NCBI RefSeq assembly: GCF_018320785.1
Contig: NC_054886.1
Span: forward strand, 32,967,732-33,031,731
Reading direction: 5' to 3'
DNA length: 64,000 bases
Source of the DNA: Cheilinus undulatus
Taxonomy: Eukaryota; Chordata; Actinopteri; Labriformes; Labridae
Position numbers and translations under genes: made by a program. A model generated the notes under the pieces. That model searched no databases, had not been told where the DNA came from, and saw nothing but the letters and a program-made list of their open reading frames with translations. How positions within the stretch are numbered: position 1 is the first letter of the stretch; each line of letters opens with the position of its first letter. Of the stretch, positions 12,401 through 64,000 are shown piece by piece.

Positions 12401-15400
12401 GGGCCTCATTGGGAAGATGCTTTCCTTCTAAACCAGGTATCCTAAGGACTCCCCATGCCTGAAGAGGTACATAATCTCTCTGGGAAGTTTTGGGTCTTTC
12501 AAAATGAAAGAGGTAGATGTTCTGACATTTACAAGGGGAGGCTTAAATTTACAACACAGAGTAGAGTTTTTAATGGATGCAGTGTGGACAGCAAGCATGC
12601 AATTCTGGAGAACTTCCATGCAATGCCTGATGCCCACATACTGTTAGGAAGAACGCAGCTGGAGCATTTCAGGCATCGGACTGGGATGGTGCAACCATCC
12701 AGATGGGAGAATTTTCTGTTGTAGATCTGAACTTGCTGGGGGTTCTTATGTCAAGTCTCGCCTGGAACTTGGAACTGCTAAGGGTGCCAGTAAGACTAAT
12801 ATCTGGGACAACTTACTTAGCCTGCTGCTACCCTGAACCATCCCAGGAAAATTGAAGAAGGGGTACATAATCCCTCTCGCAAGTTTTGGGTCTGACCTGT
12901 GGTCTCTTCCCCAGAAGACTTAACAGTGGAGCTAACCAGTAGGAACCCTTACCAGATCCCTGAACTACAACTGTCACCATTAGTTTTTTTGCATCCAAAA
13001 TGAAATCAGTAGATGTCCTGATGTTTACAAGCAGAGACTGAAATGTCCAAGACAGAGAGTACAGTTTCTAACAGATGCAGCGTGGACAGCCAGCATCATG
13101 ACTGTGCAATGTCAAACAATGCCTGACACTCATATGCTGTTAGGACGCGATGCAAGAGATAGGACAGAAGGGGGAAGCTCAGAATAGAGTTGCTACTCCT
13201 TTGCATCGTAGGAAAACAGTTGAGTCAGTTGGGAGGGTCTTCTGAAATGTGATCTGCCAATGTAACTATGACTACAAAAGGAAACCAGAACACTTCCTAT
13301 GATCCAGACATATGAGCTCTTATTCTATATTTATGTGTAGACTGTGTCAGCAGAGATTAGCTAAATAGCATGAAGGCGAAACAATCAGACTTTGTTGTCA
13401 CCTCTCACTGCCAGCCAGCTCTGCGGCGACCCTCCTTTTGTTGGGTGTTCACACTTGTAGAAACCTTCATCAGACGTGGACACTGCTGGGAGGACCATCT
13501 GTCCTCCTGGCTCTTTACCGATAAAAGCTCCATCTTTGAAGAAACTTGCTGTAAAGTTTGATGTAGAATCATCCTCATTTTCTTCCTTGTAGGAGCAGCG
13601 AAGTGTCACTTTGTCTCCCTCTGGCACAGGAAATCCCGGGATTTCCAGGATCACAACTTTATCTGAGACAGAAAAGAATATTCTATTAAAAGACGTTAGC
13701 GTAGCGTGCGTTTTGTCTCCCAAGAGGACACTTGAGCGTGCGTTTTGGCTCCCAAGAGGGCACTTGTTTTTTAACAATTGGGCCACGAGGGGGGGCGATG
13801 GCTCCCCCTGCACCCACCACCCCTCACCCCTCCCTGTGCACACCACTGGTTTTTTTGTCATGATGCCGCCAGGTTTTTCAATGAAAAAGCAGAAAAAAAT
13901 ATGTATTTTCAATATACAACATCCAAAGTAGTTTTTGTGCTGAATTATTAAAGCCTGGAATATGTCAATGATTAGCAGCAGCACTGAGTTTCACAAATTA
14001 TTATGTTCTGCATGTTTTTTCTCCATATGCTAAATATGCTCAAAGTGACGTCATCTGGTGTAGATAAGAAATAATTTTTTTAGTTCCAAGGCAAAAGCCC
14101 AGGTTGACATCCAGATATAATAAAATGCATGTATTATGCTTTAATGGAATTGGGATCAAAAATGTCAGCTTAAATGTGTTTCTATGGAGCATTTTTGGTG
14201 CTTAAAAGCTTGAGTCTAACTCTTACTTGTAAAAGGTGTATTTTAGTTTTACTGTAGGGCTGAGCTGGAAATAACAAGATCAGATCAAAATACACAATCT
14301 TGCCAAAATTCATGCCACATACATGAACACGGCTGAAATGATCAGAAAATGAAGAATGAAAAGTGTGCACCACCTCCCAAAAAACAAATCAATCACTGAC
14401 CCATATTTAGTGTTTTTGGTATTACCTGTAACTATGATGTTGATGATGTTGCTGCATTTCCCATCCGTAGACTCACACCAGTACGCTCCGCTGTCTCGTT
14501 CATTGGGATAACGAGAGAAGCAGGAGAAATCCTTGTTCAGTGTCCCCCAGCCGGGCTGACACGGCTCAGACGTGATGAAGGAGGTGTTTCTTTTCACCAT
14601 CCAGACACTAGAGTTAGCCGGCGTCTCACATTCCATGGTGAAGCCCTCATACTGAAAGAACTGAGATTTGTTGGGGTTGACTCTCAGAGTGGCTGTGGAA
14701 AATCATCACAAAGGGGTCAAACACAAAGCACTGTCGAGTCTGCTTTCAGTCCCCTTTACTTATTATTCAGGATGCCCTAAATCAGGGATCACCAGCCACG
14801 TTTGCACAAAAGCCAGATTGTTTTCTTGGCAGACATTGTGGAGGCCAGACTGTTAATTAAGCAAATGACATCTTCAGAGATGTTTTGATTTCCTTTGAAA
14901 TGCACCTTATTTTAGGCATTAGCAGTAAATTCACTCCCTACTGCAGCCAGCCACAAGGGGGCGACTGAAATATTTTTCCTATATATTATTCCTTTTATTG
15001 ACTGTTTCAAGGTTCAAAATCTGTTTAGAAACCCTCACAGGGTTAGGCTAAGTCTGTTGACAGTCCTAATCTAAAGACATCCACGTAATACTGAGGAAAG
15101 TCTGCGAAGAATGCTGTCGCCATGGCAGTTCTTTTGTTTGCCATGAAACAGGAAGTAAAACTTTTGGACGAACAGCAAACATTAATAAAAGAACAATGAA
15201 AGCAATAAAACAATGAAAATAAAAACGACATAATACTGTAAAAATTTTTGAATATTAAAAAGTTAATGAAATAAGATTAAAAAGATGTGTATTTATTGTG
15301 TTTTTACTTTTTAAACATCCAGAGATGATTGTGATTTAAATGTCCAAAGGCAGTCAGGCCCAAATTTCTGGGATATAAACACAGAAAGCTGTTCCTAGTA

Positions 15401-19005: not shown

Positions 19006-19084
19006 ATGGACCTGAAGAAGGTGTTGGTGTTGACTTTTCTCTCATTCCCTCCCATGGTCAACGCTCCTCCTATCAGCCTGACAG
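19006..19084 (+). CDS. Gene A exon 1, signal peptide
   Basis: ATG at 19006 encodes MDLKKVLVLTFLSFPPMVNA followed by PPISLT and a phase-1 donor G|GTGAGA. The flank of the donor (GTGAGAGAT...TGCCATTATCAGTGACAGT) is shared with gene B at 61973 onward, confirming orthologous exon structure. Confidence 0.75.
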
Positions 19085-22000: not shown

Positions 22001-25000
22001 TTTATTTCCATGATGAAAACTAGACTAACCTCCAATTTCCACATAAAGCGGCCACGCCAGTGATTGTACTGTGGAGCAAATCTCTCCCTCTCTAGCCTAT
22101 CAGAGCGGTTCCACAGCTGCGGCGCTTCGGTCCAGCAGCGGCGCGTGCCTGGAGCGCCACTCTGCTCTGCTTCGTTCAAAATACGCTGCAAATACAAGTC
22201 ATGAGCGTAGAATATCCGGAACAGAGTGGCAAAAATGGGGAGAAAAGGACTAAAAAAGAGGTAAATTTGGTCTAAAAAAGTGGCAAAACTTTGTGAAAAT
22301 GGACAAGAAAATTGATAAAATGGCAATATGGGATATAACTGGCAAAAATGGGTAAACAGTTTCAAAAATGTGTTTAAAGTGGAAAAAAATGGGTTGTAAG
22401 TTTTAAAAAAATGAGCAAAAGTGAAAGAAGTAGGTCTGTTTGACAAAAAAAAAGAATTGGCAAAAATGGATAAAAAGTGGCAAAAATGGGTTAAAAATGG
22501 CAAAAATGGATAAAAAGTGGCAAAAATGGGTTAAAAGTGGCAAAAATGGGAGAAAAGCAAAAAAGATGGCTTAGGTGTGGGGAAAAAGTTTCACAACAGT
22601 GGGTCAAAATGGTTCAATTGGCAAAATAAGTGGAAATTGATTGATTGAAAACAACAAAACAATGTGCGAAAAGCAGCAGAAATGAGGTGAGAGTGACATA
22701 AATGGGTGTAGAAAATGGCGAGAGGGGCTAAATTAAATGATTCCAACATCAGACCAGGTAACAGCTTCACACACTTTGCCGCCCTAACAGGAGGTAACTG
22801 GAAATTTGGAAACATTTAAATAAATAAATGTTAAGGACACTCGTCATTTAAAGCATCACAGTGGAATAAAACGATTAGTGGGGCTCTAACAGGAAGTCGT
22901 GTAACCTCTCTTTCTTCAGATTCTTCCTCTGGATGTTCAGTTCAAGTACCAGTCGGGCCACCGCAGTCCTAGAGGTTAAACCTGAGGTTACATTAGACCT
23001 ATCTGATCTTAAAGTAGAGTGGAAATATGGTGACAAGTACGTCCACGTGTCCCAGAATGCTCAGGACTATTTTAGGACTCAGGACGAGAACTCTAAAGGA
23101 AGAACATCTCTGTTAGAGGATGAAATGAGTCGAGGAGACGTTTCTCTCAAACTCACTAATGTGACTGAAAAGAATGCTGGTACTTACAGCCTTAGTCTTC
23201 TGTTCTTTGGCACAGCTAGAGAAAAATCCTTGCATAACAAGGTCAGTTCATGGTTCAGTTCTGGGGGGCACCTGCTCCAGGTGTGGGCATTGTTTGGTAG
23301 TGTTACTTTAGACAGCAGCCTTGTTACTGTACTGAGAAAGGAAATATGTCAGGAGTACTTTCTCTCACCAAAATTAAAACTCTATTTGTTTGAAATATTG
23401 GTTGGAAAAATGGCACACAGCCAGCTGAATGTTGGCCTTTGTTCATGTGGACCCTACCATTATTCCACAGCCAAGTTAAGGGCCAATAATCTGATAACAG
23501 AGTAATAGACATGATAGCTGTAACAGCTGTTTTAATGCTCATGATCTGATAGCAAACAGGGCAAAGGCAAACAGAATTATAAGATCTGTGCTTTCTGCAC
23601 ATTCAGTACATACAGTACAACAACTTTTAAACTTACATGTTACCAAAGAGTTCTTGGTCTTTATCTAAAAACTCAGAATAATGGGTATATTTCCACAGAG
23701 TAATTCCATCCTCTCTGCCACCTCACTAGCTAAAGTAGACACAGATGTGTTTATCTTATGCTAGCATGCAGCTACATGCTAACGTGAAGGAGAGAAACAG
23801 AAACTGTGCAAATCCTTCAGGGATTTTCTCAGCAGCGACAGAGATAAAAGAGCGTCGGTCAGTCATTCTTCAGCAAGAAGGAGGTTAAAAATAGAGTACT
23901 TCAGCTGCAACTCAAGCGTGTTGAAAACTCAGAATGGAACAAAAATTCATAAAGCTTTCTTTTGTTGCTCTTGACCAGCTTAATCCACGTCTTCTTTGCT
24001 TCCCAGTTCTTGCTGTTTCACATTCATTTCTGTTGCAGTGGGTTCATCAATTCTTTATCCTTATTTCTAATTCACTCTTGTTTACTTCTTTTATTTTTAG
24101 TACTCATATTGCAAGAGCTTGACAGCATCTATTCTGTATTTACATAAAAAACTTTGATATGAAGTTCTAAGAAAAGACACACCTGATGGTAAACAATGCT
24201 GAGAAATATAACCATTACTGATGCTGGAACAGGAAGTCTCACTGTCATCTCTGTTTCCCCAGAATGTTCAGCTCGAGGACCAGCAGGGGACACCACCATC
24301 CTGCCGGTCCACCTCAGGATCCCTTTAGATCTATCTGATTTAATGGTAAAATGGGAATATAAGGGGAAGCTTGTCCACCTGTTTCGGGATAGTGGGGACT
24401 ATTTGGAAACTCAAGACGAGGAGTATAAAGGAAGAACATCTCTGTTTAAGAATGAAATGAGCCGAGGAAACGTTTCACTGAGACTCACTAATGTGACTGA
24501 ACAGGATGCTGGAACTTACAGCCTCATTCTACGAAGCAAAAACATCCCTCAAGACAAAAGAAAGCACAGCGTTTCTCTCTGTGAGTACTGCTAACCTCAT
24601 CAGTCTCATAATGTTGTGTAGTGTTGATTATTTTATGCTGAAACTCTGATGATCTTTAATGTTTGAACAGGTGTGGAGAAGACAGAGGGAGATCGTCGGG
24701 CTGTGGTGAGTAAATGTCTTCAGTTGTGTCTGTTTGTAATTTCCACATTATTCAGCAGAGGCTCATCCACAAGGTCAGAATTTATTCACTCATTTAATCA
24801 TTTTACTTCATTTTTCCACAGACACCAGGAGAAAAAGAGGAAGTTGATAAAGAGATAACACAGCCAGTGCCAGTCTGGGTGAGTGAAAACAGCCAATCAT
24901 GAGCCTCATTCACCAACCCAAACCCCTGGACAATGTTTAAATCTAGAGTGATTTTAAAAATGTGGAAGATCACAGAGAAAAGGACAGTTAAAATGATTTC

Positions 25001-28000
25001 TCATTTTATAATCCTCTGAACACACAAACTAGGAGACTCAGCCAGACGGTGAGACCACACGCCAGGAACCTGTTGAGGGAGTACACAGTGTTATAGGCAC
25101 GGCATAGATATCAGCTACCATTAGCTCTCAAAGTTAATCATGGGCACATGTGAAAGTTTCTGTTATATTGGCTCTGAAATTGGCTGTGAATATTTTCATA
25201 TATTGGTTTTAAATGCCACCTTATATTCACTGTAGAGATCAGCCTTTATTGGCTGTAAATACTGGCCTATTTTGGCTTATCAGCTTATAATTGTCTAAAA
25301 TCCTGGCAAATATTGGCTGTAAATATTGACCTATATTGATTTTTAACACTGGCCTCTATAATCCATATATATATATATGGCCTATATTGGTTGTAAATAC
25401 TGACCTATATTTACTATAAATATGGGTTCTTATTGGCTGTCAATATCAGCTTAAATTGGCTGTAAACATCAGAGGATTTTGCTGTCAATATCTGCATATT
25501 TTGGTCTATACTGGCTGTGTGTATTGGCATGTAATGCCTGTAAATATGGCTATCATTATCAGCTTAAATTGTCTGTCAATATTGGCCTTTATTGGCTGGG
25601 AAAAACAGCCTGTATCTCCTGTAAATGTTTGCCCATATAGCTTTAAATACTGGCCAATATGGGTTTTAATATTGGCTTGAATTGGTTGTAAATACTGACC
25701 TTTATTTATTATAAATATGGGCTCTTATTGGCTGTCAATATCAGCTAAAATTGGCTGTAAACATTAGAGTATTTTGCTGTCATTATCTGCATATTTTGGC
25801 CTATACTAGCTGTGAATATTGGCATATAGTGGCTGTAAATATAACCCTAATTTGGCTGTCATTATCATCTTAGATTAGCTGTAAATATTGGCTTTTGTTG
25901 ATTGGGAAAAAACAGCCTGTATCTGCTGTAAATATTTGCCTATACAGCTTTAAATATCTACCTAAATTGGCTGTAAATATCAGCCTGTATCGGCTATAGA
26001 TATACGCTTATATCGCCTGCAAATACCCACATAAATTAAAATGATAGCTATAAATATCTCCTTATAACAGCAGTAAATGTCTGCTTATACTGGCCTTGAG
26101 TATCTGACTTTATTGGCTGTAAATATTAGCCTAGATCTGCAGTAAATACCAGCATATGCCAGCTGTAAATATCAGGACGAATCTGCTTTACTGATCTGTT
26201 TAGTATCCACTATAATGTATGAATGGAGTTATAGGTATGAAATCATAGGCAGTAATAACAGACCAATACCAGCTGAAGTCTTATTCTTCGTACATCTTCA
26301 TTACTTTAATCTGAAAGCCATTTCTTTAATTATGCTTTGATGGAAATGAATGAAAGGAAAGGAAACAAGTGAGTGTTTAATGACTGTTATAAAAGCTAAT
26401 AGAAGGACAAGAGGAACTTCTCAGGGAGAGGGAGAAGCAATTGGTTAGAAACAACCTGATAGTTCTCCCTACAGATTACTGATCTGATGTCTAAGCAAGC
26501 AAATTAAATTGTTATCACTGAAAACCAAACAACATTGATGATCTTCCCCTTTCCTCCAGGTCTGGATCATTCTTGGCATTTGTGGTCTTTTTGTACTTGT
26601 TGGTGGCTTAACCTTCTTGGTGTACAGACATAGAACAAGTAAGTCGTATATTTTTCTTGTATTTTTAAGATCAAAGTCAGAGGTTTACAATCTGGTTCCT
26701 TAAAACAACATTCAGTCTGTTTTGTTGGTTTTGAAAGACTAATAACGGTTTTGATTTGAGTGGATTTTGCTGTAAAAGTTGTTCCACTTCAAACACGGAC
26801 CAGACCAGTTCTTCCTGTTAAAGCAGCCTGAACACAACTATATCTGTTATTGTCTGAGGTTAATCTCTCCTTAAGCAGTTAGATTCAACTGAAACTTGTA
26901 AATCATTTCTCTGAGGCACAAAAACATCAACTCTCCGAATGCTGCTGGATCACCAATGATACCAAGTAGTATCACCGCTGTTGACAAAATCTCAGGACCA
27001 TGTGACGGATCTCTACGGCAGGCTCAACCTTTTCAGCCTATGACCCCCAAAATAAAGGTCCCATAGACCAGAGACCCCCACTGTACCTGAAGGTGGTTGA
27101 ACACAGCCATGCAAATTCAAGAATAGTCATGGTAGAAATAGGATTAAAAAGGGTTAGAAATGGGTTTAAAGTAGGGGAGTACCGATCGATCGGCCAAGAT
27201 CGGTATTGGTGCCGATTTTCTTAATTTTAGGAGATTGGTGATAGGCTGATCCTTGTAAATAAGATCAATGGATAAGATTGGTTTCATATGCCTCTACCTA
27301 CTAAAATGTGAAAAATTTAAGACTAAAGGAACTGATATAATTTAGTAGTTTGGACAGCAATGCTTTAAACTTTTCATTTATATTTGAGAGAACTACCTTG
27401 TGCAGTTAAAACAACAACTTTATATTGTTCCACAGATACTGTTCAATGTTATTCAATAAAATAAGATTGGAACATTGAAGGTGTATGCTGTCAGTTATAA
27501 AAAAAATCGGTATTGGCCAAAATCGGAATCGGCAGGTCAGGCTTTTTAAAGATCGGCGATCGGCCAGAAAAATGCAATCGGTGCACCCCTAGTTTAAAGT
27601 GGCAAAATGGGTGTAAAAAATGGTGAAATGGGGTTAAAAAGTGTGGAAATATGTTTAAAAGTGGCAAAAATGAGGCAGTTAAATAGGCAGAAAGTGGCAG
27701 AAATGTGTTACACTGGCAAACATAGGCATAATAAATAGTAAAATGTAGTTATAATGGGTGTAAAAAGTGGTGAAAAAGGGTTAATAGTGGCAAAAATTGG
27801 TCAACAGGAGCAAATATTGGTGTAAAGTGGCATGAATTGGTTTAATTGCAAAAATTGGCAGGAAAATTGGTCTGCTACCAATCTACTGATGGCTCCTAGC
27901 GTTTAAATCCCTTGCAGATTATTTTTATCTGGATGCAAAGCCCATTGTTTATTCAAAGCTTTGGTACTATAAATCCAGATTACTAGATTAATGATAATGT

Positions 28001-28861
28001 GTTCATTTATTATGTTTTCAAAGTGAAAAACTTTTGACACTGGCAGCGAATGACAACAACTCTCTGTTCGCCTGCTGGCCAATCACAATGCTCCAATTTT
28101 TTTCTCTGTTTTCTTGGCGGGGTCAGCCAAGGATCAACAATCGACAATAAAGGTATGTGTTAGTTTGGAAAGGAAGACAACATAATGCTCTATGGCCCGG
28201 CTTATGAAAACATGACATTTGGGCTCCTAACATGGGATTAATGAGCATTTTATGCACTAGAATACCACATGCACAAAGTGTGAATGGGTTTACAGAAATA
28301 AATGATAGTGATAGTTTCTGTTTTGTAAAGATGTTATTTTTTTCTTGATAGTTCTATAAGATAAAATTTCTATATTATTCTTTTACCTGGTCTTTCTGGC
28401 TAAATAACTTTGAATATATTCCTTCATCCTTGCAGCACACATATTCTGATAGTCCAGGTTGTCCTGAAAAAATAGATGTGTATAACCTGATTGTGCTTAC
28501 AAGGGTAGAGATTCTACATGAATTTTTGAAAAATGAATAATAAATAAAAAACAATAGAGGTGGACCACAAATATAGAAACGTTTCAAGGGTTAAAAACCT
28601 GAATGATTTCGAGGAAATTTGAATGCAACATGCAATATTCATACAATATTTGTTGTATGAATAAATCCCCCCAAAATTCCAGGAAAAATTCTGGAAAATT
28701 TTCAAACATATTCCCCAAAACATCCAAGCTAATTTCCTGAACTTTTACATGAAAATCCAGGTGGCATTTATTTTAAAATGTACAAATTTTCCAGATTTCT
28801 GATCAAACCAAAGTCCTAAATGTGTATGAATTTATTCCCTAATTCCCATTAAAATACATAC

Positions 28862-28912
<51 letters not shown>

Positions 28913-31680
28913 CCAAAATGCAATTTAATAAAATGTGTGTGTGTTTTTTTTTTTTTTTTGACTTTTTCCATGTAAGGTTACCTTGAATGCTTTGAAAGAC
29001 GTCTTTATATAGAAATCTTTATTATCAATGATGTTCTTTTATGTGCATGAATAAATCTGCAGGAGTGCATGTACAAAATGACTCCCTGCATGCACACATA
29101 AGGACATCGTTTCAGCCTCTTCAAGAACTAACTAAGCATCAGGGCAAGGAGGTTGAATATAAAAAACAACAACAACAAAAAAACAAACTAACAAATGTAA
29201 AGAACCAGATCAGTGGTCACATTAGAGGTATAACTTTGTCTACAAGAGGCTGCCAAAAACCAAAAGTTTCTCACACTAGCTCCATCATGGCCCAGAGGAC
29301 TTTTATTTGGAAGGTCAATGAAAGAATGAGTCTCAGACTTAAAATAAAAAAAAAAATCATAGTCATATTATTTTAAATCAGGCCACCTAACAATTAAAAT
29401 TCTAAACTGCAGTTTTTAATTTGCATAGTTAAGAAAAACCGACCAGTTCTACATGTAAAATTTTATAAATGTAAATGAGTGCTGCTCTGCTACACCAGTT
29501 CAGTCTGAAGCCTTGATGTAGAGCTAGGACAGAGAGCTTTTTTAGTTGAATACACTGTTCAACAGTATTACACACAAAGAAATCTGCAGGAGCGCATGTA
29601 AAAATGACTCACTGATGTCCAATGTTCGCTGGTTAATGCAACAGCATATGTATTTCTTAGGAGTTCATGTTTAGTCACTTCCTGAGTTTAGTGACCCCGT
29701 TAAGATGAACTAAGTTAACAGATCAAGTTACTGCTCTCTATCATTGCTTTACTGTGCAGTTTCTACTGTCTTTAAGGTCACATATTGTGCAAATTACACT
29801 TTTTCAGGCTTTTCTAACAAAAATATGTACCCCTGGCCTGTGTACAATCCCCCCAAGAATTAGAAAAAATCAATTCCCTTGTCTTAAAATGGTAAAATAT
29901 GTCTCATTTGAACTAACAGTCCTTTACCTATTAAGATTAAAAATCTGCTTTAATCTTGAGAGAAAATCAGGAATCTCTGGTAGGCAATAACGTAAGCTTA
30001 ACCATGAAAAAATGAGCCTGCTATGGATCAAAAATTAAATTTAAAGCTAAAAGAAATTATTATAATGATAAATACCGTTATCTCAAGGTATGAATGAGTT
30101 TTGCTTTGTCTGCTGAGTTCATTTAAGTGAAATGAGAAATTTAAAGGAGAAATGATGTCCTTAATTGCCTCACCTTGAGAGCAAAGGGACTTTAAGTCCA
30201 AGGCTCTCTCCAAGGTCAGGACCCATACATTTTCTCTGAGGCATTCACAATAACTTCATGTTTCTGTGGTAACTGCAAAGATGTCACAATGCCAAGAGCC
30301 TGACTTCCTCCTCTGATCACATCCATTCATTGTGAGCATGAGTGATTGATGCAGTGATGCTCTTATCACCAATATACCATCTTTGGTAAATGCTGAGGCT
30401 GGGCAGTTGCTGATATTCAGTATGTAAATTTACCATGACCTCATATCTTTTAAGTGTTGTGCTCCTGCCTGCCTCTGTCTGACTGTTTTCTCACTCACTG
30501 ACACACCTCTCATGCTGACTACAAACTAATATCACACACATGTGGTGCCACACAGTGATCAGCTGCATTCCTGAGCTGTAAGTTTATCAGGGTTCTGCAC
30601 ATTACAAGCAGCTATTTCCTCAAAGTTTACCTTTTATTTCTCAGTGCTGCTGATAACACTGATTTTCTCCTGTGAGTCTGAACACGGGGGCTGAGAATGC
30701 CCTGTTTCACTTCAACCATGCTTGACTGTCAGCTTCAGTGTTGATGATTTAGATGCCTGTTGCAATGAGGCCGCTCTGTATATGCAAACATCAGATTTCT
30801 ATCAAAATACCTGCAAAAAATGACTCAGTCTCTTAGTCGGTCATGTGCTGCACATTCAAACTCATGCACTGACACATAATCTTCAAATCCTTAAAGAGAG
30901 AAGTCCAAGGATCATTGACTCTTAAATGACTGTTGCCAATGGGGAAGCATGACACATGACTGTAATGAGCTGTTTCATAAGTCTGAGGAGACTTGCTGTA
31001 TTTAGAGGAGAGCTTATACTGATCATGCTTCATCTCATACCAGTCGTACCTAATTTGACATATAACACTTTCCCAGCAACAAAACTGACTAGTGGAAATG
31101 CTGAGTGGCTAGTAACTTTGCAAAACCACTAACCACTGTGGCTGGTTATGATTAGTGCAAATTCTTTTGTGGATATGGTGTAAAAAAGGTGACCAGTGGA
31201 CGCTACATGTGCAATAATCTCGATATCTTAGTGCTGTTAGCACAGTGCAGTTCATTCATTCAGGATCTGCTGCTTTTTACATTGTTTCCAGACCTTAAAT
31301 GCATCATTATTAACCACACAACATCAACAGCCCTGGTTAAATCATCTCTAGGACCTTTCACAGAGGGTTATTCTATCAGCACAGTTAATAAACAACCTCT
31401 GTTCTTGATTATTTTGAGTCCACATGACTCCTGATGGTCTCAGTGTGGACAAAGACAAAAAATGGAAAGATGTGCTTTTCTAAGTAGGACAAACTCTGCT
31501 AAAAAGGATAAAGGATCATGGATGGCTAAGATAAAGTGAAATGAGCTTATCAGAGATTCATGTACTCGTGATTATAAGTTAGTAGGGGATTTTTGACCTG
31601 CCTTGTAAACTCCTCTCCTAATCTCCTTATAGGACAAAAACGGAGCAACTGCCAAGGAGTCGGAGATGACCAAAACGTAG
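19006..31680 (+). CDS. Gene A: V-set-like type I membrane protein (B7/butyrophilin/MOG-like)
   Basis: Inferred exons are 19006-19084, 24263-24580, 24671-24705, 24822-24878, 26560-26638, 28127-28152 and 31633-31680. They join in phase to 642 nt, 213 residues. Residues 1 to about 20 are a signal peptide, 27-132 a V-like domain, 133-163 an acidic linker, about 164-185 a TM helix, and 186-213 a short charged tail without obvious ITIM/ITAM. The domain keeps W57 and DAGTY (108-112), but V42 and L114 replace the two canonical cysteines. C28 and C133 sit at its edges. A dead V exon at 22920 must be skipped for this frame. It likely acts at the leukocyte surface like other fish butyrophilin/B7-like proteins; the partner is unknown. 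Close paralogues are genes B and C. Confidence 0.65.
19869..20236 (+). mobile_element. Solo LTR in gene A intron 1
   Basis: It runs from TGTAACAGCC to GTTCGTGACA with a 4-bp target duplication AGCG on both sides (19865-19868, 20237-20240). It contains a TATTTAAG promoter box near 20002 and AATAAA near 20160, in LTR order on the plus strand. Type is probably Gypsy. Confidence 0.7.
20241..21200. other. Intron 1 of gene A, nothing recognised
   Basis: No ORF, repeat or splice-bounded exon was found here. Confidence 0.3.
21225..21545. repeat. Tandem duplication of about 165 bp with GA-rich core
   Basis: Two copies share ATATCCACAT, ATGAGCAAAC/ACCAGCAAAC, GATGTTTGAAATGAGGT-like and (GA)n segments, then ATCA-TCACCCAT. 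ORFs on the minus strand reflect the simple GA/CT content. Confidence 0.5.
21967..22030. mobile_element. hAT end fragment (CAGTGTTAATTT family)
   Basis: CAGTGTTAATTTCGTTGATTA and GACTAAAAATTTTCG match the left end of the longer element at 45613-46756. The copy is cut short after about 65 bases. Confidence 0.55.
22222..22720 (-). repeat. TTTTGCCACTTT-family array in gene A intron 1
   Basis: Reverse-complement units (GGCAAAAATGGGTTAAAAAG) recur many times and end 200 bases before the dead V exon. Confidence 0.6.
22920..23240 (+). pseudogene. Gene A dead V exon (V1) with frameshift
   Basis: The acceptor CTTTCTTCAG leads into D-SSSGCSVQVPV, and then the frame hits TAG at 22970-22972. Compared with the gene B exon (63656), one base is missing at about 22955-22957 (AGAGCC there, GGGCC here). 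After the shift, a clean V-like frame resumes: DLSDLKVEWKYGDKYVHV, GRTSLLEDEMSRGDVSLKL and NAGTYSLSL. The 3' end lacks the T|GTGAGT donor of the intact V exon; the nearest candidate is AAG|GTCAGT, which is in the wrong phase. The exon is dead or, less likely, carries an assembly error. Confidence 0.75.
23241..24262. other. Intron between gene A V exons
   Basis: No further exon was seen. The 3' end GGAAGTCTCACTGTCATCTC resembles the intron ends before the V exons of genes B and C, supporting exon duplication. Confidence 0.4.
24263..24580 (+). CDS. Gene A V-like exon (V2), intact
   Basis: The acceptor CTCTGTTTCCCCAG and donor CTCT|GTGAGT frame 318 nt, phase 1 at both ends. Order of strands: ECSARGPAG, TTILPV (B strand, Val for Cys), LMVKWEYKGK (C strand Trp), GRTSLFKNEMSRGNVSLRL (D-E strands) and TEQDAGTYSLIL (F strand, Leu for Cys). 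N103-V-T is a potential glycosylation site. The overall pattern is that of a B7/butyrophilin V-set domain without its disulfide. Confidence 0.8.
24671..24705 (+). CDS. Gene A linker exon 1
   Basis: The acceptor TTGAACAG and donor GTG|GTGAGT frame 35 nt that take phase 1 to phase 0 and encode CVEKTEGDRRAV. The Cys codon is split across the junction (T|GT). Confidence 0.6.
24822..24878 (+). CDS. Gene A linker exon 2
   Basis: The acceptor TTTTTCCACAG and donor TGG|GTGAGT frame 57 nt in phase 0 encoding TPGEKEEVDKEITQPVPVW, an acidic membrane-proximal stalk. Confidence 0.6.
25130..26210 (+). repeat. Intronic minisatellite, TATTGGCTGTAAATAT units
   Basis: Dozens of diverged copies of a 20-25 bp unit like TATTGGCTGTAAATATCAGCC fill the intron before the TM exon of gene A. 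Higher-order repeats are visible: 25390-25560 resembles 25690-25860. Confidence 0.7.
26560..26638 (+). CDS. Gene A transmembrane exon
   Basis: The acceptor CCTTTCCTCCAG and donor A|GTAAGT frame 79 nt, phase 0 to 1. It encodes VWIILGICGLFVLVGGLTFL then VYRHRT, a TM helix with a basic cytoplasmic anchor. Gene C has the same phase pattern at 45267-45348. Confidence 0.75.
27115..27870 (-). repeat. TTTTGCCACTTT-family array split by a hAT insertion
   Basis: GTGGCAAAATGGGTGTAAAAA and similar units lie on both sides of the element at 27172-27591. Confidence 0.55.
27172..27591. mobile_element. Short non-autonomous hAT element, perfect TSD
   Basis: The ends TAGGGGAGTACCGATCGATC and GGTGCACCCCTA are inverted repeats. 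An exact 8-bp duplication GTTTAAAG flanks it (27164-27171, 27592-27599). The same element lies inverted at 38425-38816. Confidence 0.85.
28127..28152 (+). CDS. Gene A putative cytoplasmic exon 1
   Basis: A pyrimidine tract (TTTTTTTCTCTGTTTTCTTGG) and CAG precede 26 nt that restore phase 0 and encode TKDQQSTIK, with donor AAG|GTATGT. Support is from phase and splice sites only. Confidence 0.45.
28865..28908. repeat. (TA)n microsatellite
   Basis: About 22 uninterrupted TA units in the last intron of gene A. Confidence 0.95.
28910..31630. other. Long last intron of gene A, no gene seen
   Basis: No exon-like ORF was found. A 35-bp stretch AAATCTGCAGGAGTGCATGT (29055) recurs at 29580, an isolated duplication. 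The rest is unique AT-rich DNA. Confidence 0.3.
31633..31680 (+). CDS. Gene A putative last exon
   Basis: The acceptor TCTCCTAATCTCCTTATAG leads into DKNGATAKESEMTKT and a TAG stop, in phase 0 as required. AATAAA follows at 31890-31895. The charged short tail has no recognised signalling motif. Confidence 0.5.
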   Translation, partial: DKNGATAKESEMTKT

Positions 31681-31889
31681 GACAGGAGCGCATCGAGATG
31701 CTAGGACTTGGGGAACGCCAATGAAGGCTGAACATTTCTAGGTCAGAGAGAAACAGAAACTGTGCATCACTGTCCAACTGACATAGTTAATGAAATCCAC
31801 ATGTTCTCTGAAAAAAATGCTGCTGATGGGGTTACAGAGAATCATGACACAAGCTTTTTTTTCCACTTCACTACAACCAGTCACAGAGA

Positions 31890-44013: not shown

Positions 44014-44219
44014 GATCACAGCAAGATCCCCAAAGACGTTCTGTTAGAGTACGAGTAGGGGGAACGGCCATCCTGCCTTTAAACCTCAACACCATGCTGG
44101 ACTTTTATCATGTAAAAGTAGAATGGCTCGCATGATGGGAAGTCTGTGCATGTGTTTCAGAATAATCAGCGCTACAGCACATCAGATGACTTATTATATG
44201 TTTCATCTTTTCTACTAAG
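44014..44219 (+). pseudogene. Gene C V exon, frameshifted and truncated
   Basis: The acceptor CTCTGTTTTCTCAG leads to SQQDPQRRSVRVRVGG, TAILPLNLN (Leu where Cys is usual) and YHVKVEW. Then LA and TGA follow. In another frame HDGKSVHVFQNNQRYSTSDD continues the C'-C'' region. The D-G strands (GRTSL..DEMS, DAGTY) are absent. Sequence passes straight into the intron end TTTCATCTTTTCTACTAAG of the next exon. Confidence 0.65.
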
Positions 44220-61893: not shown

Positions 61894-61972
61894 ATGTGCC
61901 TCAAGTACTTGCGGTTAGCTTTTGTCTTCTTTTTTTCCCTGGTCAAGGCCTCCTCTCCGAACAGCTTGACAG
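61894..61972 (+). CDS. Gene B exon 1, signal peptide
   Basis: ATG at 61894, 79 nt, the same length and phase as gene A exon 1. Donor G|GTGAGAGAT with a shared downstream flank. Confidence 0.75.
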
Positions 61973-64000
61973 GTGAGAGATGTCTGCCATTATCAGTGAC
62001 AGTAGTTGCTTCTTTTTCCTTGTTTGAAAGAAAAAAATAATTTACAAAGGAGTTTCTGTCCTACAGACTTCAGACTTTATTTATCAAATGTGTGTAATGG
62101 TTGGTAGGTGGTTCTAGGTGGAGAGGCTAGCAGCGTTAGCATTAGCTCCAGGATAGCAGGTTAGCTCAGAGAAGCAAGAGGACAGTACGGAGATTTCAAC
62201 ACGGTGCTTTGTTCTACAACTGAAGACAGACCTTATAATGCCAGGCCTCCACGGCACTAGTCATACATTAGAAGTAAAATATAGACATAACCTTCACCAA
62301 CTCGTCACGCAGTTTTGGGAGTCCTCTTCACTGTTAGGCGTACATGCTAAGAGAGGATAGCTGCTGACAAGATCGCTACCACTAATCTTACTGGGTTAGA
62401 GTCTCCTTGCAAATCTGTTTAAAATCACTAAAATACTATGCCATCCATGAAAGCATTGTTGGTGGTAAAGTGATTTTCTAGTTCATGTTTTGGGGACATT
62501 TGATCAGTTTGGTGTGTTTGACGGTGGATTTTGATCGTGGATTTTGTTTGGGGCCTGGTAGCACATGGTGTTCACATGGAACCTGTGAAAACCCACGGAT
62601 CGAAATTCCTTGTTGCATTACAACTTTCATCCTCAACATCTAAAAGATAACATTCCCTATGGACAATTCTTAAGGTTAAGAAGGATCTGTGGCCAGGACT
62701 CAGTTTTTCAAAAACATTCTCAAACCATGACAATGCGCTTTTTAGATAGATCATATAAAAAAAACATCATCTCCACAGCTCAGACCAAAGCAGCCTCCAT
62801 CGGATGTCGCTACCTTCTACAGCCTTCTAATAAACCAAAAAAAAGACTCTTTTAGGTATCCATGCAGTTAAACATTACAGTAAACAGGCTAGACAGATTA
62901 AACATGTCATCCTATCTAACTGGGACATATGAGTGACCCCTCTTTGAAGGAGATATTCGATCAGCCACCTAGCTTCCAAAAAAGAGCTCCCTCTCTAAAA
63001 GACAAACTGACTCATAGCTATCTTCCAGCCCAGTGGCTCAAGAGACCTACTGGAAGCTTTAAATGTCTGCAATCACTTAAAAACAGGAGAGGTATACAAG
63101 ATTAAACATCTCAGAAACTGCAATTCGACACATGTAGAATACCACCTCACCTGTCCCTGCAAATGCTTCTACATAGGACGCACTAAAAGGCGTCTAAAAG
63201 ATAGGGTAGCTGGGCATAAATATGCTATAAGAACTAACAATGTGGACTACCCTGTGGCCTGCCATTTACAGGAATGTCATCAGAGCAACGACAGCCTTCT
63301 GGAGGTAGAAGGTTTAGAACTAGTGGAGCAGTCAGTTAGAGGTGGCGATCGTCTTAAAAAACTGCTACAAAGGGAGACCCTCTGGATCTTTAGGTTTGGT
63401 GCTATGACGTACCCAGGCCTTAATGAGGAGATGATTTCAAACCTTTTCTAAAGAAGATGGTTTCTAAAATTTAGATCAGTGTTCTTAGAATAACATATTT
63501 TATAGTAAATCTACCTCTTGAGTACATAGATCAGCCTATTTTTTGCACTTTCAATTAATATTTTGATTGAATTGAGTCACCAGGTTTACACACTCATCCC
63601 TCTTTAATTTCATTCCAGTATAATGGAAGTCTGACTGTAATCTCTCTTTCCTCAGATGCTTCCTCTGGATGTTCAGTTCAAGTACCAGTCAGAGCCATCG
63701 CCATCCTACTGGTTAGCCTTGAGGTTATGTTAGACCTATCTGATCTCAAAGTAGAGTGGATATTTGGTGACAAGTATGTCCACGTGTCCCAGAATGCTCC
63801 GGAATATTTTAGAACTCAGGATGAGAACTATAAAGGAAGAACATCTCTGTTAGAGGATGAAATGAGCCAAGGAGACGTTTCTCTCAAACTCACTAATGTG
63901 ACTGAAGAGGATGCTGGAACTTACAGCCTTAGTCTTCTGTCCTTTGGCACAGCTAGAGAAAAATCCTTACATTACAGGGTCTGTTCATGGTTCAGTTCTG
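61894..64000 (+). CDS. Gene B: V-set-like membrane protein, partial (runs off window)
   Basis: Exon 1 is 61894-61972 (MCLKYLRLAFVFFFSLVKAS then SPNSLT, phase-1 donor). The V exon begins at 63656 and is open to the window end. It is a close paralogue of gene A: the signal-exon flanks, intron ends and V exon all align. As in gene A the V domain has the C-strand Trp (LKVEW) and DAGTYSL, but neither canonical Cys. Downstream linker, TM and tail exons lie outside the window, so function and integrity cannot be judged. Intron 1 contains a Penelope remnant. Confidence 0.65.
62600..63451 (+). mobile_element. Penelope-like retroelement, 5' truncated, with GIY-YIG end
   Basis: Residual RT thumb: YNFHPQHLKDNIPYGQFLRL, then after frame breaks FDQPPSFQKRAPSLKDKLTH. 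The C-terminal frame (63100-63451) is intact: VEYHLTCPCKCFYIGRTKRR, LKDRVAGHKYAIR, GGDRLKKLLQRETLWIF and YPGLNEE. This is the GIY-YIG-type endonuclease end, with the Y-x-G/Y-I-G core given as VEYH...FYIG and catalytic-type Arg, His and Glu in place. It lies in intron 1 of gene B. Confidence 0.8.
63656..64000 (+). CDS. Gene B V-like exon, open to window end
   Basis: The acceptor CTCTCTTTCCTCAG leads to DASSGCSVQVPV, RAIAILLVSLEV (B strand without Cys), DLSDLKVEW, YKGRTSLLEDEMSQGDVSL and EEDAGTYSLSL. Unlike the dead gene A copy it has no frameshift here. The 3' end (GTAREKSLHYRVCSWFSS) matches that of the dead gene A exon and lacks an obvious T|GTGAGT donor in view. Confidence 0.7.

Follow-up and report, generated by a model that had tools for sequence, protein, structure and literature searches.

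A B7-like V-set domain of a labrid fish that lacks both canonical disulfide cysteines and carries a cysteine at each edge

The disulfide between the B and F strands comes close to being the defining mark of V-set domains. V domains of the CTLA-4/CD28 type keep it, and the cysteine that links the CTLA-4 dimer sits in the stalk; many butyrophilins carry a cytoplasmic B30.2 domain. The available part of PMC11969063 describes dimerization of CTLA-4 through an intermolecular disulfide and A'/G contacts. V domains free of the disulfide are already known in other families. According to excerpts of the respective sources, the N-terminal V domain of SLAM/CD2 receptors has no disulfide (PMC11012012, PMC10657885) and CD2 is a named exception (PMC12051499); SLAMF2/CD48 has the cysteines for the bond in both of its domains (PMC10657885), the membrane-proximal C2 domain of the family has two disulfides, and some members have no ITSM (PMC11012012 / PMC10657885). 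The preliminary description of our locus held the B-F disulfide to be necessary in nearly all V-set domains, which leaves these SLAM/CD2 domains out of account, as far as the same excerpts go (PMC11012012, PMC12051499). In teleosts, the NITRs end their V domain with a J-like FGxGTxLxV motif, as stated in the accessible portion of PMC2442602.

The window, a stretch of 64,000 nucleotides from Cheilinus undulatus (C22:32967732-33031731; the genome comprises 1.17 Gb in 46 contigs), contains on its forward strand, at 24263..24580, a V-set exon, V24 (A_V2), of what we call gene A. This exon is of phase 1-1 with consensus splice sites, and its translation (...CSARGPAGDTTILPVHL...VKWEY...GRTSLFKNEMSRG...DAGTYSLIL...HSVSL(C)) matches Pfam V-set at 8.2e-08, its 32.9 bits against PF07686 lying above the curated cut-off of 26. 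Alignment to B7-H4 places Val at the B-strand cysteine position and Leu at the F-strand position, which confirms the earlier report that both canonical cysteines are lost; all five copies of the group that includes V24 (group 1) lack the pair and have Val and Leu in its place. The C-strand Trp, the D-x-G-x-Y motif and the D-E segment are kept, as had been noted, but the segment was then misquoted: DEMSRG belongs to the V22 copy, and V24 reads GRTSLFKNEMSRG. One cysteine lies near the start of the exon, and the codon of a second is split across the 3' junction as T|GT and completed by the next exon, which begins with GTGTGGAG; the cysteine at each edge was thus correctly recognized at the outset.

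When V24 was compared with PDB sequences, B7-H4 came first (9.7e-15), followed by CD276, MOG, PD-L1 and BTN2A1. A profile search returned the same B7/BTN/MOG families, with no SLAM/CD2 entry among the best 60 of 210 matches. We infer that V24 is a variant of the B7/BTN-type V domain, for which a recognition function at the cell surface would be expected. No teleost family of this description was found in literature titles and the opening parts of abstracts, which is weak evidence.

Gene A is apparently intact, with a signal peptide, one V domain, a stalk, a transmembrane segment and a predicted tyrosine-free tail. Its open frame spans six plausible exons on the forward strand. Exon 1 (19006..19084), identified by its sequence and a consensus phase-1 donor, encodes the signal peptide MDLKKVLVLTFLSFPPMVNAPPISLT and has a counterpart in gene B. 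V24 is followed by stalk exon 1 (24671..24705; VEKTEGDRRAV), which completes the Cys codon, has consensus splice sites and recurs in genes B and C, by stalk exon 2 (24822..24878; TPGEKEEVDKEITQPVPVW) and by the transmembrane exon (26560..26638; VWIILGICGLFVLVGGLTFLVYRHRT), the gene B homologue of which is 92% identical over 63 nt. The putative tail exon (31633..31724) encodes 30 residues and ends with a stop; it has a phase-compatible acceptor and a frame common with gene B. In both genes the choice of the tail exon is a prediction of splicing, and neither predicted tail contains tyrosine. A 26-nt alternative cytoplasmic exon (28127-28152) was dropped, as it has no counterpart in the aligned stretch of gene B. 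Joined with the predicted tail, the exons yield a protein of 219 residues, whose predicted ectodomain has cysteines only at 28 and 133; further cysteines occur at 171 in the membrane segment and 196 in the tail, and N-glycosylation motifs at 96 and 103. Since only the exons of 35 and 57 nt were recognized between V24 and the transmembrane exon, the predicted protein has no Ig C domain, and its predicted tail has no B30.2 domain.

Three further V exons lie on the forward strand of the window. V22 (A_V1; 22920..23241) has lost both canonical cysteines and matches Pfam V-set at 4.2e-06 in its downstream frame; it carries a 1-nt frameshift near its 5' end and has in-frame stops when read from the acceptor. 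V63 (B_V1; 63656..63978) is an open V-set exon of gene B (Pfam V-set 2.2e-07), again without either cysteine. The best donor of V22, AAG|GTCAGT, is of phase 0 by phase count, as is the weak candidate donor of V63, so that neither can be joined in frame to a phase-1 exon of the V24 type. Both are probably relics, V22 by its frameshift and V63 by this mismatch of phase. The dN/dS between them, 0.77, does not differ from 1. The phase-0 end of V63 matches the phase-0 start of stalk exon 2 (the gene B exons lie in L009), and V63 could serve with the V2 exon of gene B as an alternative first domain, in an isoform in which V63 is joined to stalk exon 2. V44 (44014..44187; SVRVRVGGTAILPLNLNT...), a broken remnant akin to the sister group described below, has Leu at the B-strand cysteine position; its frame is broken after VKVEW, and its DNA is 88% identical to that of the sister-group copy L011 over 458 bp. 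Elsewhere in the window, Ig-domain exons on the minus strand (13391-14702) resemble an Fc receptor-like gene in our reading; 13391-13990 matches Pfam Ig_2 (5.3e-08) and 14313-14702 has no Pfam match. In mammals, FCRL genes neighbour SLAM genes.

Gene B begins within the window with its exon 1 (61894..61972, forward strand; signal peptide MCLKYLRLAFVFFFSLVKASSPNSLT), and the match to its V2 exon begins 755 bp beyond the end of the window. Gene C, the other neighbouring paralogue, lies outside the window. Both genes have an open V2 exon with Val and Leu at the B and F positions, an N-terminal Cys and a T|GT junction Cys; gene B has in addition a second N-terminal Cys and a G-strand Cys. Gene B would be complete from signal peptide through tail, the tail being predicted as in gene A. 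For gene C, V2, stalk and transmembrane exons were recognized, but no tail exon; a search of three loci (L010, L014, L051) did not reveal its signal exon, and its locus has a V1 match of 53 bp only. The earlier remark that three family members share the cysteine loss holds for V22, V24 and V63 in the window, although two of them are the probable relics. The proposal that the loss is older than the duplication of the family is supported for genes A, B and C, which have both losses in common.

A search of the whole genome gave 35 matches. Alignment classed 27 of them (13 with both canonical cysteines, 8 with neither, 5 with only the F-strand and 1 with only the B-strand cysteine), and the other eight were read by eye: L020, L028, L031, L033, L035 and L036 retain both, L027 retains neither and contains an internal stop, and L034 has kept the F-strand cysteine. 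The totals are 19 with both, 9 with neither, 6 with only F and 1 with only B. When the genome was searched with Pfam V-set, the best 150 of 1327 candidates were scored, which gives no rate of cysteine loss for the genome as a whole. No relative was found in the viral contigs and genome contigs scanned, and all genomic comparisons are within one genome.

The closest relatives of group 1 are a sister group of four copies (L011-L014), all with Leu at the B position and Cys at the F position. The clade of the two groups has a support of 99/100; 57% of the 200 bootstrap trees hold group 1 together as a single clade, and the best tree requires two changes in group 1. Since the sister group has retained the F-strand cysteine, a stepwise loss is likely. 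In the simplest reading, the B-strand cysteine was probably lost first, in an ancestor of both groups, and the F-strand cysteine later. All four sister-group copies have also gained a Cys immediately behind the C-strand Trp. An apparent terminal Cys in this group was rejected because it had been read from the intron; after splicing, L011, L012 and L014 have T|AT (Tyr) at this codon and L013 has G|AT (Asp).

Unusual cysteine patterns also occur elsewhere in the genome. At about 54.84-54.86 Mb of contig C4, L022, L030 and L027 (the last with the stop) are V domains in which both canonical cysteines and the C-strand Trp are gone; their N-terminal segment and G strand carry cysteines close to the register that an A'-G staple would require. 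Of 18 matches in a whole-genome search, these three reached at least 85% and the remaining 15 at most 38%. In L034 (C22:31928958-31929125), reading by eye indicates that the B-strand Cys has become Trp and the C-strand Trp has become Cys (ITLEW..IEC..YQC), as if two core residues had exchanged strands. L024, on contig C18, has tandem V domains, one without any Cys in the examined stretch and its neighbour with only the F-strand Cys.

We lean, by a little, towards the reading that the product of gene A is a small type I membrane protein that has a single hydrophobically packed V domain of B7/butyrophilin ancestry, a stalk cysteine that joins chains and a fast-changing recognition surface, having lost its canonical cysteines in steps. 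The packed core would replace the B-F disulfide, as in the V domains of SLAM/CD2 receptors. The cysteine at the domain-stalk junction, perhaps together with the N-terminal one, would link chains by disulfide bonds, in the manner of CTLA-4, and a putative partner in immune recognition would be bound by the fast-changing, loop-like surface. As the V24 domain looks intact and changes fast, it appears as if still used for recognition.

Counting N-terminal cysteines from the B position and C-terminal ones from the V/stalk junction, genes A and C have them at -14 and 0, gene B at -22, -14, -5 and 0, and L013 at -14 and -2, while L011, L012 and L014 have neither edge cysteine. Of the seven V2-type exons of the clade, four (A, B, C and L013) thus have both an N-terminal and a G-strand or junction cysteine and three have neither. 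In the part of PMC12051499 that deals with strand register, A' residue 1848 pairs with G residue 9554 via a parallel backbone bond; we mapped this register onto antibody VH numbering and V24, where it sets -12 beside about -4. Against this partial reference, the -14/-5 cysteines of gene B and the -17/-7 cysteines of the C4 pair L022/L030, which has a third Cys as well, fall within one or two residues, whereas genes A and C are off by about six residues and L013 by about four.

An edge disulfide from A' to G between the N-terminal and junction cysteines of the same chain, replacing the B-F bond, would explain the joint presence or absence of the two cysteines in all seven V2-type exons. The distant C4 pair, without canonical cysteines and with Cys at -17 and seven before the junction, would fit it, as would the G-strand Cys of gene B, five before the junction and nearly in register with -14. 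We nevertheless consider it unlikely. The junction partner in genes A and C lies about six residues, roughly 20 A by our estimate, away from the register taken from the consulted part of PMC12051499, V63 has the -14 Cys and L019 a -17 Cys without any G-strand Cys, and the paralogues are not independent. An AF2 model of three window copies is not usable for this purpose: at a pLDDT of 49, its Foldseek matches, mostly PD-L1 with a TM of about 0.6, carry little weight and no distances were taken. The preliminary description had suggested linked edge cysteines and, in V24, an A-to-G disulfide. The linkage agrees with their co-occurrence but not with V63, and the disulfide is not supported for gene A, where the N-terminal Cys would face a G residue about six before the junction Cys in the register drawn from that excerpt (PMC12051499). 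Its second suggestion, pairing between chains, would fit gene A better.

A broader scenario, which we also hold to be rather doubtful, would have a B7-like V clade leave the canonical disulfide in two steps, B and then F, with edge cysteines as replacement. Gene B would have an A'-G staple and genes A and C a stalk bond between chains, and the surface would be under diversifying selection. The distant pair on the other contig would have arrived at a similar state, probably independently. Finally, the protein could be the same but monomeric, its edge cysteines free or paired with another protein, as the sequence does not reveal their partners. We judge this improbable, as the junction Cys is retained in all three genes and unpaired surface cysteines are uncommon in secreted domains.

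Equally improbable, in our view, is a decaying locus in which the cysteines were lost once constraint had gone. In its favour are the frameshifted V22, the broken V44, the 53-bp V1 match and missing signal exon of gene C, and the V2 substitution rates of A, B and C. With a purpose-written codon likelihood for dN/dS and M1a/M2a, the V2 exons of A, B and C (3 sequences, 100 codons) have a dN/dS of 1.31, not different from 1 (2dlnL 0.91), and an M2a over M1a of 5.48, which misses the 5% level with 2 d.f.; a dN/dS above 1 is not demonstrable for these three alone. The sister group (4 sequences, 106 codons) has a dN/dS of 5.52 (2dlnL 16.7; M2a over M1a 37.3), and the pooled seven (97 codons), on an assumed tree, 1.71 (2dlnL 7.7; M2a over M1a 26.5). 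The purifying selection for which a dN/dS test had been proposed was therefore not found. Sites with a posterior >0.9 lie, by our strand assignment, in A', BC, C-C', C''-D and FG/G.

Other observations speak against decay. V2 is open in all three genes, with in-frame gaps only, and the replacement residues at both cysteine positions are identical in A, B and C; splice sites and stalk exons are retained in all three, each with a transmembrane exon. When neutral change was simulated, all three V2 exons stayed free of stops with a probability of 0.033, and their invariant residues are clustered (P 0.024). The V2 exon also diverges more than the flanking introns, with 57/312 versus 18/427 differences between A and B (P 4.5e-10), 60/309 versus 44/442 between A and C (P 0.00036) and 59/303 versus 49/418 between B and C (P 0.0044), although part of this excess may stem from gene conversion or exon exchange, as the A-B dS of 0.15 (NG86) exceeds the intron value of 4.2%. 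Neutral decay is thus disfavoured by the open frames, the clustered framework residues and the dN/dS above 1 of both the sister group and the pooled set.

Near relatives with both, one or neither cysteine in one genome make the order of bond loss testable. The same relatives allow tests of how the bond is replaced and of a fast-evolving recognition domain without it. Moreover, searches that require both cysteines will overlook open fish V-domain genes.

Among known systems, the V domains of B7-H4 (VTCN1), PD-L1, CD276 and the butyrophilins resemble gene A in the D-E segment, the C-strand Trp and the D-x-G-x-Y motif, and are its best PDB matches. Gene A differs from them in having neither B-F cysteines nor an Ig C domain behind the V domain, and in the cysteine at both edges; its predicted tail has no B30.2. 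SLAM/CD2 receptors ordinarily have a V domain free of the same bond, and a minus-strand Ig gene that we read as Fc receptor-like lies nearby at 13391-14702; membership of this family is nevertheless very improbable, as gene A has no C2 domain between V and membrane (only the 35- and 57-nt exons), no Tyr in its predicted tail and B7/BTN/MOG, with no SLAM/CD2 entry, among the sequence matches listed. NITRs, in the portion of PMC2442602 at hand, are similar as clustered, divergent V-domain membrane receptors of fish, but their J-like FGxGT motif at the G strand is absent by eye from V24 and from the V2 exons of genes B and C, and the predicted tail has no ITIM tyrosine. CTLA-4 and CD28 share the layout of gene A, with one V domain, a short stalk and a cysteine between V and membrane, and differ from it in the B-F bond, which the V domain of gene A lacks.
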